IMG/VR virus record: IMGVR_UViG_3300021961_000085
Location: 1 to 64,000 of that record
Direction: 5' to 3' (one strand)
Source: a virus
DNA: 64,000 nt
The translations under genes were made by a program, and so were the position numbers. This document shows, piece by piece, positions 49,051 through 51,457 of this stretch (position 1 is the stretch's first letter; each line of letters begins with the position of its first letter). The notes beneath the pieces are model-generated. The model saw only the letters and a program-made list of their open reading frames with translations. It made no database searches and was not told the origin of the DNA.

Positions 49051-49242
49051 TTATTTTTTATCGGTTAATTTAATTCTTCTTGTCCTTGGAAATCCTTTTG
49101 CCTTTCCCGTTGGAGTAGCAAACGTTGGTTCTAACGTATAGTAAACATTCCAACCATAAAAATTTACATAAAAAACCTTCGTCTTATTTCCTTTTTTTCT
49201 GATGTAATTTTGTGCCTCTTTAAGTGAATATTCTTTTACCAT
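49051..49242 (-). CDS. Small basic protein, 63 aa
   Basis: Basic, with NFYGWNVYYTLEPTFATPTG and RTRRIKLTDKK at the end. One-base overlap with the previous gene's stop. Unknown. Confidence 0.6.
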   Translation of the reverse strand: MVKEYSLKEAQNYIRKKGNKTKVFYVNFYGWNVYYTLEPTFATPTGKAKGFPRTRRIKLTDKK

Positions 49243-49691
49243 TATATGTTTTTATATCTTTTTTCTAATCTTACTTGCAATAATTCACTGTGTTGACGTA
49301 TCATTGTGTCTCTAGTCCACTTACTAATTGTCATTTTTGGCTTTTGTACGTGGTTTTTAAGTATAAACTTAGCTAAAAACTCTTCACGCTGTTCTTGCAA
49401 TTTGATGAGAACACGCTGGTAAGCTTTGTTTATTACTACTTTCTTTTGCAAATGACTCCACTCTGCTGTTTCAACAAGTCTCACTGGATTTATTTGATAG
49501 ATCTGGCGAGGAGATATTTTCCTCACATAGCCTGTCGCATAAGTTGCAAACATCATTGGTCTTGTCTTACCGCTTGCTAGCACATCACGCTCTGGTAGAG
49601 CAAATACTTTAGTGCCGTTAGCTTTTTGCCTTGCTGTAGTTACTTCTTTCACTCCAAGCAAATCAAGTATTTCTAATGGTTTTAAATTCAT
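49242..49691 (-). CDS. Basic protein behind tRNA-like element A
   Basis: 149 aa from the ATG at 49691. A longer frame to 49742 would read through the 3' half of the tRNA-like element and is rejected. N-terminal MNLKPLEILDLLGVKEVTTA looks like a short HTH, followed by YRKISPRQ-type beta sequence, a helical basic C-terminal half and a K-rich end. Possible DNA/RNA-binding protein. Its start codon is 2 nt after the element's acceptor-like 3' end. Confidence 0.7.
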   Translation of the reverse strand: MNLKPLEILDLLGVKEVTTARQKANGTKVFALPERDVLASGKTRPMMFATYATGYVRKISPRQIYQINPVRLVETAEWSHLQKKVVINKAYQRVLIKLQEQREEFLAKFILKNHVQKPKMTISKWTRDTMIRQHSELLQVRLEKRYKNI

Positions 49692-49693
49692 AG

Positions 49694-49778
49694 TGGACGT
49701 GGCAGGAATCGAACCTGCGTCTGAGATACTGTCTTGCCGCAATTGGCGAAGATACTGTCTCGCTCACCTTTCACGCCC
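49694..49778 (-). ncRNA. tRNA-like element A (85 nt, intercistronic)
   Basis: Minus strand: 5' GGGCGTG pairs over 7 bp with 3' CACGTCC (one G-T), followed by discriminator-like A and then CT-ATG. Next to it is a canonical T-arm, GCAGG-TTCGATT-CCTGC. The middle (54 nt) does not fold into a normal D-arm and anticodon arm. AGACAGTATCT occurs twice there as a direct repeat, and a 7-nt anticodon loop with a stable 5-bp stem is not found. The element fills the gap between two genes with 7 nt on its 5' side and 2 nt on its 3' side. Not confidently a functional tRNA. Confidence 0.65.
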
Positions 49779-49785
49779 ATATTAG

Positions 49786-50004
49786 TTATAATGGATATAT
49801 ATCTTCCCACCCATCTACGGCATTATTATTATAATACCTAGCCTTTTTAGGTTCTACATACTCATCAGGCCAAATTGAATATTGCTCATTTGGAAACATC
49901 TCCTCTAAACTACTTAACAACTCATTAGCTTCCTCTAGTGAAAGTTGAGTTGTATGTTCTTCAGGATAATTTGTTTCATTCATTATCTTATATAATTCTT
50001 TCAT
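49786..50004 (-). CDS. Acidic small protein between tRNA-like elements
   Basis: 72 aa from the ATG at 50004, 2 nt after element B. The longer frame to 50043 again runs through the element. Acidic, with LSLEEANELLSSLEEMF and the end DGWEDIYPL. The stop is 7 nt before element A. Function unknown. Confidence 0.7.
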   Translation of the reverse strand: MKELYKIMNETNYPEEHTTQLSLEEANELLSSLEEMFPNEQYSIWPDEYVEPKKARYYNNNAVDGWEDIYPL

Positions 50005-50006
50005 AG

Positions 50007-50109
50007 TGGACGTGGCAGGAGTCGAACCTGCGTTACAACACACTCGTACGTTTTTCGGTCGAATTACAGCATCACACTCATGCCTGTGTTGTCTGAACCT
50101 TTCACGCCC
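50007..50109 (-). ncRNA. tRNA-like element B (103 nt, intercistronic)
   Basis: Same acceptor (GGGCGTG/CACGTCC-A), same following AAAGGT, and near-identical T-arm (GCAGG-TTCGACT-CCTGC) as element A. The interior is different: an 8-bp stem ACAACACA/TGTGTTGT encloses a CAGGCAT/ATGCTG hairpin with a 7-nt loop. Acceptor plus T-arm plus a long interior helix in place of D and anticodon arms recalls tmRNA architecture, but no tag frame was recognised. Gap to flanking genes is 7 nt and 2 nt, as in element A. Confidence 0.65.
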
Positions 50110-50116
50110 ATGTAGG

Positions 50117-50329
50117 TTATCTTAGGCAAGTGCCATAACCTTTGCGTTTTGCAGATTTATTTATCTCGTCTGCGAGAGATTTTGGTAAGAATTGTACTTC
50201 ATTACCTGTTTTATGGTTTACAATTTGCACTGCGCCATATTTTTCTGTCTTAGAGCAATCTACGCATGTAGTATAACTATACTTTATACGCACAGGGTGG
50301 ATCGCATTACCGCATCTACATATTTTCAT
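50117..50329 (-). CDS. Zinc-ribbon protein (DksA/TraR-like)
   Basis: 70 aa from the ATG at 50329. A TTG 6 nt upstream is a less likely start. Four Cys: MKICRCGN and TTCVDCSK, in a CxC...CxxC arrangement close to the C4 zinc finger of DksA/TraR proteins, which bind RNA polymerase. The coiled coil of full DksA is absent. Starts within a few nt of promoter motif P3. Confidence 0.6.
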   Translation of the reverse strand: MKICRCGNAIHPVRIKYSYTTCVDCSKTEKYGAVQIVNHKTGNEVQFLPKSLADEINKSAKRKGYGTCLR

Positions 50330-50336
50330 AATCAAA

Positions 50337-50357
50337 CATATTATCGATCACTATCCG
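50337..50357 (-). promoter_or_regulatory. Promoter motif P3 (CGG-N8-CGATAATATG)
   Basis: Minus strand: CGGATAG, TGAT, CGATAATATG. Fits the shared spacing with one change (CGG for CGA). Overlaps the stop of the upstream gene and lies 7 bp before the zinc-ribbon gene. Would drive the operon containing elements B and A. Confidence 0.55.
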
Positions 50358-50547
50358 TTTTTCGATTGTCATCTATTAATCCATTTTCTATCAAGTCTCT
50401 TGCAGTTCTACCGAACCACCCTTGTAGTTGATACGCTAATCCAGTATCATGAAGATACTGCCATGCTTCAATGATTTGATCTTCTGACTCGGCCTCTATG
50501 AAGCCTTCCGCCAGTCCTACTGCTGTGTAATTATCCATTTTATTCAT
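50341..50547 (-). CDS. AWQYLHDTGLAYQLQGWFG-type phage protein
   Basis: 68 aa. The central motif EAWQYLHDTGLAYQLQGWFG plus RTARDLIE is strongly conserved in my memory of small phage proteins, function unknown. An alternative start is the third codon Met region (MDNYT). The following gene upstream lies 82 nt away. Confidence 0.75.
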   Translation of the reverse strand: MNKMDNYTAVGLAEGFIEAESEDQIIEAWQYLHDTGLAYQLQGWFGRTARDLIENGLIDDNRKTDSDR

Positions 50548-50629
50548 TTTTCTATTTCTTTTGGTACAAAAAAACCATCCTCAACTATGTTTTCTTTTCT
50601 TCATTACTAAATTTCATAGGTACTCTAGC

Positions 50630-50776
50630 TTATCCATTTGCCGCATGTTGTTTATTCACTGATACGTCAGATCTTCTACCACCGACTGAAGTTAATTTCT
50701 TTTTGTACGCTAAGAAAAGATCATTCTCTTTCAAGATCTCGTCTAATTTCTTTGGATTTCTCTTGTTATTTTTCAT
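50630..50776 (-). CDS. Small basic protein, 48 aa
   Basis: 48 aa, K/N/R-rich (MKNNKRNPKKLDEILKEND, then LTSVGGRRSDVSVN). Its ATG overlaps the stop of the gene upstream (ATGA), supporting translation. The 82-nt stretch between its stop and the next gene contains only 7-10 codon frames. Confidence 0.6.
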   Translation of the reverse strand: MKNNKRNPKKLDEILKENDLFLAYKKKLTSVGGRRSDVSVNKQHAANG

Positions 50777-51042
50777 CGCTTTGGATTATTAAAACTGTTC
50801 CACTTATTGATTAACTCTTGATTCCAACCACCTAGCTTGGCAACTTTGTCTTTGATGATCGCTAATTCACGCTCACCCTTTAACCATACTCTGTGATCGT
50901 CACTCATTTCGTACCACCCGTCATGCTTTTCGAACATTTCTTCGATCGAAAGATCTTCAAAACGATCTTCATACTCGTAAAAGTAAACACTCGCTGCTGG
51001 GCACTGTGGCACACGTCTTCTGTATTTTTTCATGTAACTCAT
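50773..51042 (-). CDS. Hypothetical protein behind tRNA-like element C
   Basis: 89 aa from ATG at 51042, 2 nt after element C. A GTG start at 51069 would translate the element's T-arm and is rejected. Basic N-terminus YMKKYRRRVPQ, then acidic SIEEMFEKHDGWYEM and a helical end. Unknown function. Confidence 0.7.
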   Translation of the reverse strand: MSYMKKYRRRVPQCPAASVYFYEYEDRFEDLSIEEMFEKHDGWYEMSDDHRVWLKGERELAIIKDKVAKLGGWNQELINKWNSFNNPKR

Positions 51043-51044
51043 AG

Positions 51045-51091
51045 AACCTTGAGTGAGGATCGCACTCACACACGCAAACTATTGCAAGGTT
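51045..51091 (-). ncRNA. tRNA-like minihelix C (47 nt, 5' leader)
   Basis: Minus strand: AACCTTG pairs perfectly with CAAGGTT (7 bp). Between them lie a 15-nt linker and a T-arm-like hairpin GTGAG-TGCGATC-CTCAC with one unpaired base before the closing strand. Then CT-ATG. No D or anticodon arm. Its 5' base is 6 nt downstream of promoter motif P4, so the leader RNA would consist almost only of this structure. Confidence 0.6.
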
Positions 51092-51097
51092 GTTATA

Positions 51098-51118
51098 TAT
51101 ATTATCGAGCACTGTTCG
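51098..51118 (-). promoter_or_regulatory. Promoter motif P4 (CGA-N8-CGATAATATA)
   Basis: Minus strand: CGAACAG, TGCT, CGATAATATA. Lies between the 34-aa membrane gene and element C. Six bases separate it from the 5' base of element C. Confidence 0.65.
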
Positions 51119-51129
51119 TGCTTCATTTG

Positions 51130-51234
51130 CTAGCTTCCACCAAACACATAGTATATGAAGTTAACAAAGAATAGGATCGCTATTATTGCAATAACTGTTC
51201 CGATTGCATCGATTATTTCTTCTTTTTTGTTCAT
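51130..51234 (-). CDS. Single-span membrane micropeptide (34 aa)
   Basis: 34 aa: charged N-terminus MNKKEEIIDA, then one hydrophobic helix (IGTVIAIIAILFFVNFIYY) and a short end. ATG overlaps the stop of the upstream gene (ATGA). Likely inner-membrane, early expressed, function unknown. Confidence 0.6.
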   Translation of the reverse strand: MNKKEEIIDAIGTVIAIIAILFFVNFIYYVFGGS

Positions 51235-51413
51235 ATTCCGCCTCCTAACGCTATGTCTAACTTGTACACCAACTTAGGCGCTACATTTAATGCTACTATG
51301 ATAGCGAAACCGATCGCACCTACAAGTGCTGTTACTGCCGCGCCTGCTAGTGCTTTTACTGTTACACTTGATATTGTAACAATTGCTTTGTGTTGAAATT
51401 TTACTTTGTTCAT
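51231..51413 (-). CDS. Small membrane protein behind tRNA-like element D
   Basis: 60 aa from ATG at 51413, 2 nt after element D. Basic N-terminus (MNKVKFQHKAIV) and a long hydrophobic A/V/I/G stretch (residues ~15-46, VKALAGAAVTALVGAIGF) forming one or two transmembrane helices. Together with the 34-aa gene it forms a two-gene membrane-peptide unit under P5. Confidence 0.65.
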   Translation of the reverse strand: MNKVKFQHKAIVTISSVTVKALAGAAVTALVGAIGFAIIVALNVAPKLVYKLDIALGGGI

Positions 51414-51415
51414 AG

Positions 51416-51457
51416 AAGTCACCGTAAGAATCGAACTTACACTAACCATTGTGACTT
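51416..51457 (-). ncRNA. tRNA-like minihelix D (42 nt, 5' leader)
   Basis: Minus strand: AAGTCAC pairs perfectly with GTGACTT (7 bp). Inside are a 10-nt linker AATGGTTAGT (D-loop-like GGTTAG) and a canonical T-arm GTAAG-TTCGATT-CTTAC plus one base. Then CT-ATG. Same layout as element C with unrelated stem sequences, so base-pairing is conserved while sequence is not. The 5' base is 6 nt after promoter motif P5, as in C. Confidence 0.65.

Follow-up and report, generated by a model that had tools for sequence, protein, structure and literature searches.

The stretch of DNA analyzed here (the window) comprises 64,000 nucleotides (nt), positions 1 to 64,000 of the IMG/VR virus record IMGVR_UViG_3300021961_000085, which totals 65,415 bases. 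It comes from a podovirus-like phage, among whose genes PHROGs labels a terminase, a portal, and a GroEL. The terminase is 64% identical to that of the uncultured phage MW202828 and ~39 to 47% identical to those of Flavobacterium and Cellulophaga phages, and the window probably represents a marine Bacteroidota phage, with the host deduced from these relatives. On its minus strand, four small open reading frames (ORFs) each open right after a sequence resembling the 3' half of a tRNA. These four tRNA-like structures (TLS), elements A to D, are joined to their genes by N-CT-ATG, a junction that is exact at all four. The original prediction had placed tRNA mimics, consisting of an acceptor and a T-arm, before all four genes, which holds for A, B, and D, while C is a weak case. 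It had also described the downstream genes as unrelated, and the four proteins indeed show no mutual similarity.

Elements A and B belong to a single type (type I) present in two copies, so the original claim of four independent cases does not hold. Their shared parts are an acceptor stem of 7 bp, a D-loop of the form AAAGG.. with no D-stem, a variable helix at the center, and a perfect T-arm (GCAGG TTCGANT CCTGC) followed by A-CT-ATG; the variable helix, the D-loop, and the alanine identity pair G3-U70 were not part of the original prediction. Element A (49694 to 49778, minus strand) pairs GGGCGTG with CACGTCC in its acceptor (49778-49772/49701-49695), carries its T-arm at 49718-49702 and discriminator A at 49694, and encloses the D-loop AAAGGTGAGC and a variable helix domain, which matches that of contig L012; compared with shuffled sequences, its fold has a z score of -2.41. 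The junction at 49689 to 49693 leads into the ATG (49691) of gene A, which encodes 149 amino acids of no assigned function (49242 to 49691). Element B (50007 to 50109, minus strand) has the same acceptor (50109-50103/50014-50008), a T-arm at 50031-50015, discriminator A at 50007, the D-loop AAAGGTTCAG, and an 8-bp helix formed by ACAACACA and TGTGTTGT (z = -2.00). Its junction (50002 to 50006) opens gene B at the ATG at 50004; the product is an acidic protein of 72 amino acids, likewise of no assigned function (49786 to 50004).

Element D is a 41-nt miniature (type II; 51416 to 51456, minus strand) with a 6-bp acceptor (AGTCAC/GTGACT), in which position 7-66 is not paired. The D-loop AATGGTTAGT runs straight into the T-arm (51440-51424; GTAAG TTCGATT CTTAC), which is followed by T-CT-ATG, with discriminator T at 51416 and the junction at 51411 to 51415. 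The ATG at 51413 begins gene D, which encodes a hydrophobic, membrane-like protein of 60 amino acids with no assigned function (51231 to 51413). Element C (51045 to 51090, minus strand) is in the same register as D, with the acceptor ACCTTG/CAAGGT, a T-arm at 51069-51053, and then T, CT, and the ATG (51042) of gene C (50773 to 51042), whose 89-amino-acid product has no assigned function beyond a weak match to phrog_16661. However, its T-loop is TGCGATC, its D-loop lacks GG, its fold is no better than shuffles (z = -0.85), and no relatives of it were found; it is a doubtful type II member at best.

We searched for such structures with a structure finder. Over 1.6 Mb of viral DNA it returned 149 matches, of which 63 are ordinary tRNAs; the same DNA gave none after shuffling that preserved base composition only. 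Pure chance was rejected as the origin of the elements on this result. When up to 2 mismatches are allowed, the bare pattern GGTTCGANTCC occurs no more often in the window than expected (18 matches versus 19.6 expected), and its only exact matches there are A and B. ARAGORN detected no tRNA anywhere in the window, and Rfam at curated cutoffs gave no match in it. The elements are not canonical tRNAs, being negative with ARAGORN and RF00005 and having no D-stem or anticodon arm; nor are they canonical transfer-messenger RNAs (tmRNAs), since the Rfam cutoff is not reached. Standard annotation overlooks this TLS family, and a literature search with thin coverage of subscription journals returned no account of such phage RNAs.

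Type I elements occur in dozens of viral contigs and in 29 records of cultured Microbacterium phages. Redundancy among relatives was removed by simple similarity cutoffs, and the contigs are fragments. In 13 other viral contigs there are matches to the A/B-like 3' half, which comprises the T-arm, the acceptor strand, and CTATG. Absence of the junction from all relatives, which would have told against the original prediction, was therefore not observed. These contigs share one layout: GGGCGTG, a GG-bearing D-loop, a variable stretch, AAC or GAC, the T-arm, CACGTCC, and ACT. A pattern free of both acceptor and ATG picked up ordinary tRNAs and some odd fragments, but again also elements whose acceptor forms all 7 bp, among them the new acceptors GGGTGCG/CGCATCC and GGGGTGC/GCACTCC. 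The distance from acceptor to T-arm is ~37 to 71 nt, rarely ~150 nt, and the central domain is wholly variable in sequence with a closing helix at a fixed position; across 29 nonredundant elements, this helix averages 5.07 Watson-Crick pairs versus 2.86 in shuffles (standard deviation of the mean, 0.28). In L011 and L014, the type I element is closely preceded by a conserved multihairpin stretch (CCCTCGC..GTGAGGG around GTGCT-ACAC-AGCAC), which may be another RNA.

The Microbacterium copies were reached through a blastn match to phage Gack, obtained by querying the phage collection with a constructed type I consensus that otherwise matched mostly ordinary tRNA T-arms. They are mostly unannotated, once labeled tRNA-Pro, and neighbor tRNA-Asn and/or tRNA-Gln. 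In 12 of these phages, 97.6% of cells pair, compensatory changes affect 14 of 28 pairs, and none of 500 shuffles equaled this; every one of the 12 has G-U as its third acceptor pair. Nothing convincing was found among the plasmids searched, and in the prokaryote genomes just two contigs, L178 and L198, showed the type I pattern as a full element. L198 (JAAGZR010000125.1), filed under an Aliivibrio metagenome-assembled genome, has a typical Bacteroidota-phage type I element and is very probably a misbinned phage contig. No TLS was found in the portions examined of the cultured Bacteroidota relatives phi18:3, Gundel_1, and elemoF. MW202828, the closest annotated relative, has only an odd, unannotated Leu-like element (L286:492-629) with an extended anticodon-side helix and the acceptor AGTGCAG/CTGCACT-ACA.

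Type II elements were present in ~30 contigs. Among 8 distinct copies, aligned with N substituting for a missing base 66 in three rows, pairing was 100% and 8 of 11 pairs showed compensatory changes. A search for the D-loop and T-arm that demanded no acceptor returned 22 distinct copies. Of these, 20 form all six acceptor pairs and the other two form five, and the tail N-CT was present in 20 of the 22. Because the pairs are kept while the acceptors differ widely (AGTCAC, TGACAT, AGACAT, GAGATA, TGAGTA, AAAGCA, and others), the 41-nt acceptor/D-loop/T-arm RNA itself is under selection. The covariation seen among relatives demonstrates that type I and type II elements are folded RNAs.

Further classes accompany these two. 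Type III has the acceptor AACTAGG/NCTAGTT, with covarying variants AACCAGG and AATCAGG, a highly variable center, and, immediately ahead of the T-arm, a conserved CTACTGACGAGTA hairpin (L150, L158, L242, and L364 to L381); an additional class has AGGCGTG/CACGCCT-T. In 20 relative records, intact GTTCGANTC T-arms are nearly always part of a tRNA or a TLS; each record has between one and a few, which mostly cluster on a single strand. Identical central hairpin modules (for example, GGTGAGGGATCGTTATGAACTC and GCGGCGNAAGCAAAGGT) recur in TLS whose acceptors belong to different classes, as though cargo had been swapped; they are shared between L253:4594-4686 and the type III element of L378 and between the type I elements of L005 and L158 and the type III element of L366. 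Tandem TLS with AAAG acceptors, differing centers, and tails ACCA or ACTATG occur in L041 (1843-2236), L052, L085, and L351, and L024, L026, and L110 share the acceptor AGTCAGG/CCTGACT and the T-arm ACAGG..CCTGT around differing interiors. In Drexlerviridae phages of Escherichia coli and Klebsiella, an odd, long tRNA-like gene, unannotated or labeled tRNA-Ile and scoring 41 to 43 bits with the Rfam tRNA model, sits beside tRNA-Arg (L223:1433-1531, L226:933-1031, and L227:933-1034). Xanthomonas phage XacN1 carries an unannotated tmRNA (L225:914-1333; 107.8 bits with beta_tmRNA and 123 bits with the permuted model).

The position of the elements relative to genes was assessed with CT-tailed type I and II elements that had been found without demanding an ATG. 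Within 30 nt downstream on the same strand, an ORF of at least 40 codons starts at 18 of 30 elements, versus 17.5% of random same-strand positions; in relatives, the start usually lies 10 to 27 nt past the element. Once two types omitted from this count are restored, an immediate ATG is found in ~2 of 32. The conserved tail of the family is N73-CTA. Of 14 genuine tRNAs in these phages, 12 are likewise followed by this tail or one near it; where the A of CTA doubles as the first letter of the start codon, CT-ATG results. Thus, the proposed rule of CT and then ATG describes A to D exactly, and, as a rule that always applies, it is unsupported among elements sampled without the ATG. Placement at gene starts is general, and direct abutment is a minority mode that happens to occur four times here. 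A regulon marked by a tRNA mimic, as had been suggested, is not needed for elements that form several tRNA-like RNA classes, some of them located in tRNA clusters.

Genuine tRNAs and TLS also replace one another in front of the same gene. The gene whose product begins MEHPNAKK lies behind a TLS in L004, L006, L007, L009, and L012 and behind a genuine tRNA-Met (..CGCA-A-CTA-ATG) in L138; that beginning MEINKYIK lies behind a TLS in six contigs and behind tRNA-Gln in L161. Both families use the same Met whether a TLS, a genuine tRNA, or neither (L153, L170, and L254) is upstream. Homologues of gene A, including those in L016, L170, L260, L279, L141, and L165, have no TLS directly upstream. Because homologues retain the Met even though the DNA ahead of it is entirely different, the short starts are correct, as the original prediction had held for the ATG right behind the mimic.

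The acceptor of type I has a particular identity. G1-C72, G2-C71, G3·U70, and A73 are invariant, while positions 4 to 7 covary across nine acceptors (GGGCGTG, GGGTGCG, GGGGTGC, GGGTAAC, GGGCCTG, GGGCCAG, GGGCCGG, GGGGGTG, and GGGCTAG). This invariance is partly built into the search patterns, one of which included GGGCGTG and one finder GGG with TCC-A; however, the acceptor-free pattern and a whole-record T-arm scan impose no such constraint, and there GGGTAA(C)/(C)TTATCC-A also emerged. For both tRNA-Ala and tmRNA, the established identity is G3-U70 together with A73. An alanine-type acceptor with a tRNA-like T-arm is found in all type I elements and in no type II element; compared with tRNA-Ala, type I lacks the D-stem, the anticodon arm, and detection by ARAGORN. 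The Rfam tmRNA model (RF00023) spans element A end to end while skipping ~300 model positions that correspond to the mRNA-like domain; it scores 33.2 bits (E = 9.8e-12) for A, 22 bits for B, 37.5 bits for L010, and 30.9 bits for L016, all against a cutoff of 47. The likeness includes, besides the identity elements, GA after the acceptor, a stemless D-loop, a helix at the place of P2, and GAC before the T-arm, whereas type I has no mRNA-like domain, tag frame, or pseudoknots. By these features, type I resembles a tmRNA minus its mRNA domain.

We favor, with moderate confidence, the explanation that the TLS are punctuation marks at which host tRNA-processing enzymes cut operon mRNAs at gene starts. 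Plant mitochondrial t-elements at mRNA ends are cut in this manner by RNase P and RNase Z (PMC11658184). Several unrelated acceptor classes occupy the site before genes, so the property they share is the top half of a tRNA. In addition, tRNAs and TLS stand in for each other before the same gene and carry a common tail; tRNA punctuation is the simplest mechanism. The TLS retain just what tRNA maturation enzymes read, namely, the acceptor stem, the T-arm, and the contact between D-loop and T-loop, with type I as a tmRNA/tRNA-Ala-type domain whose variable hairpin stands for the anticodon side and type II as one without that side. Operon transcription would run through the TLS, host RNase P would cleave the 5' end, and RNase Z (or exonucleases) would cleave past the discriminator base, leaving a downstream mRNA that starts 5'-CU-AUG in the window or with a leader of 10 to 27 nt in most relatives. 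The freed type I RNA, with its G3-U70 and A73, would probably gain CCA and alanine. Such punctuation would be useful in Bacteroidota, which initiate translation without Shine-Dalgarno sequences (PMC6847099).

Several observations weigh against this explanation. The strict alanine identity of type I is unneeded for punctuation alone, and the recurrence of variable-domain modules across loci and classes is left unexplained by it. An immediate ATG is rare outside the window, the Microbacterium element lies within a tRNA cluster rather than at the start of a gene, and element D folded as a single sequence favors a different hairpin.

The alternative that survives best, possible though less probable than punctuation, is that type I is a stable trans-acting RNA, a phage tmRNA minus the mRNA-like domain that would be charged with alanine and serve stalled ribosomes or decoy alanyl-tRNA synthetase, EF-Tu, or SmpB, its place before genes reflecting tight packing only. 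The fixed identity positions beside covarying ones, the match of the tmRNA model to A, the tmRNA-like GA that follows the acceptor and GACGC that precedes the T-arm, and the copies within tRNA clusters all fit this alternative. However, the alanine pair is missing from types II and III and from the AGGCGTG class, which nonetheless occupy similar sites, and ORF starts within 30 nt exceed the null more than threefold. The alanine identity and the Microbacterium tRNA-cluster position nevertheless argue that type I may also, or instead, act in trans as a charged, message-free RNA. A more speculative reading, which we consider rather unlikely, is that an alanine-chargeable, tmRNA-like scaffold acts as an exchangeable carrier: the top half would ensure maturation and the operon cut, and the center would be swappable RNA cargo with a function of its own, for instance, as a decoy against host factors or defenses.

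Control of translation in cis, in which the folded TLS at the start codon would block or recruit the ribosome, perhaps via a bound tRNA enzyme, has the thrS operator as its comparison model. The start codon adjoins the acceptor stem in A to D, but it is 10 to 27 nt away in most relatives, genuine tRNAs occupy the same place, and the downstream genes are unrelated; we regard this as improbable. The absence of an anticodon arm and the degeneracy of C might suggest functionless, decaying relics of tRNA or tmRNA genes, which is very unlikely given the compensatory changes in both types and their conservation in many contigs and the 29 cultured phage records.

Still less credible is a protein-coding T-arm, with genes that begin upstream and a conserved N terminus. 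Longer frames are open for A and B, where the T-arm reads AGSIPATST and AGSTPATST, matching the AGSxPATST that had been predicted for all four; D reads VSSILTVTS and C reads SAILTQGS. Yet homologues without a TLS share the Met and have no such N terminus, the upstream DNA changes completely, and the T-stems covary, so for A and B the longer frames are miscalls, as had been proposed. Integrases often target tRNA 3' ends, but attachment sites of integrating elements are a scarcely tenable explanation when the whole RNA, including the 5' acceptor strand, is conserved with covariation and each phage carries several different copies on one strand.

Read as punctuation, the phage elements would be akin to tRNA punctuation in mitochondria. 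They share with plant mitochondrial t-elements the retained top half of a tRNA and, on this reading, would also share a location at mRNA ends and the expected RNase P and RNase Z sites (PMC11658184). The tRNA-like fold and the placement before genes are seen here. The elements lie in phage records and not in plant mitochondria, their anticodon side is absent or hypervariable, and a gene starts directly after the 3' end. Furthermore, t-elements were found not to be aminoacylated, while phage type I keeps alanine identity. Among viruses, the elements differ from other known mimics in host, position, and details of fold: the 3' tRNA-like structures of plant viruses and the tRNA-like RNAs of herpesviruses are also recognized by tRNA enzymes.

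The TLS make up an overlooked family of small phage RNAs, comprising a 41-nt acceptor/D-loop/T-arm mimic and a putative tmRNA-like alanine acceptor without a message, and the cultured Microbacterium phages make type I immediately testable. If the punctuation reading is true, mitochondrial-style tRNA punctuation would also exist in bacteriophages and would explain short-leader mRNAs in phages of hosts that are free of Shine-Dalgarno sequences.

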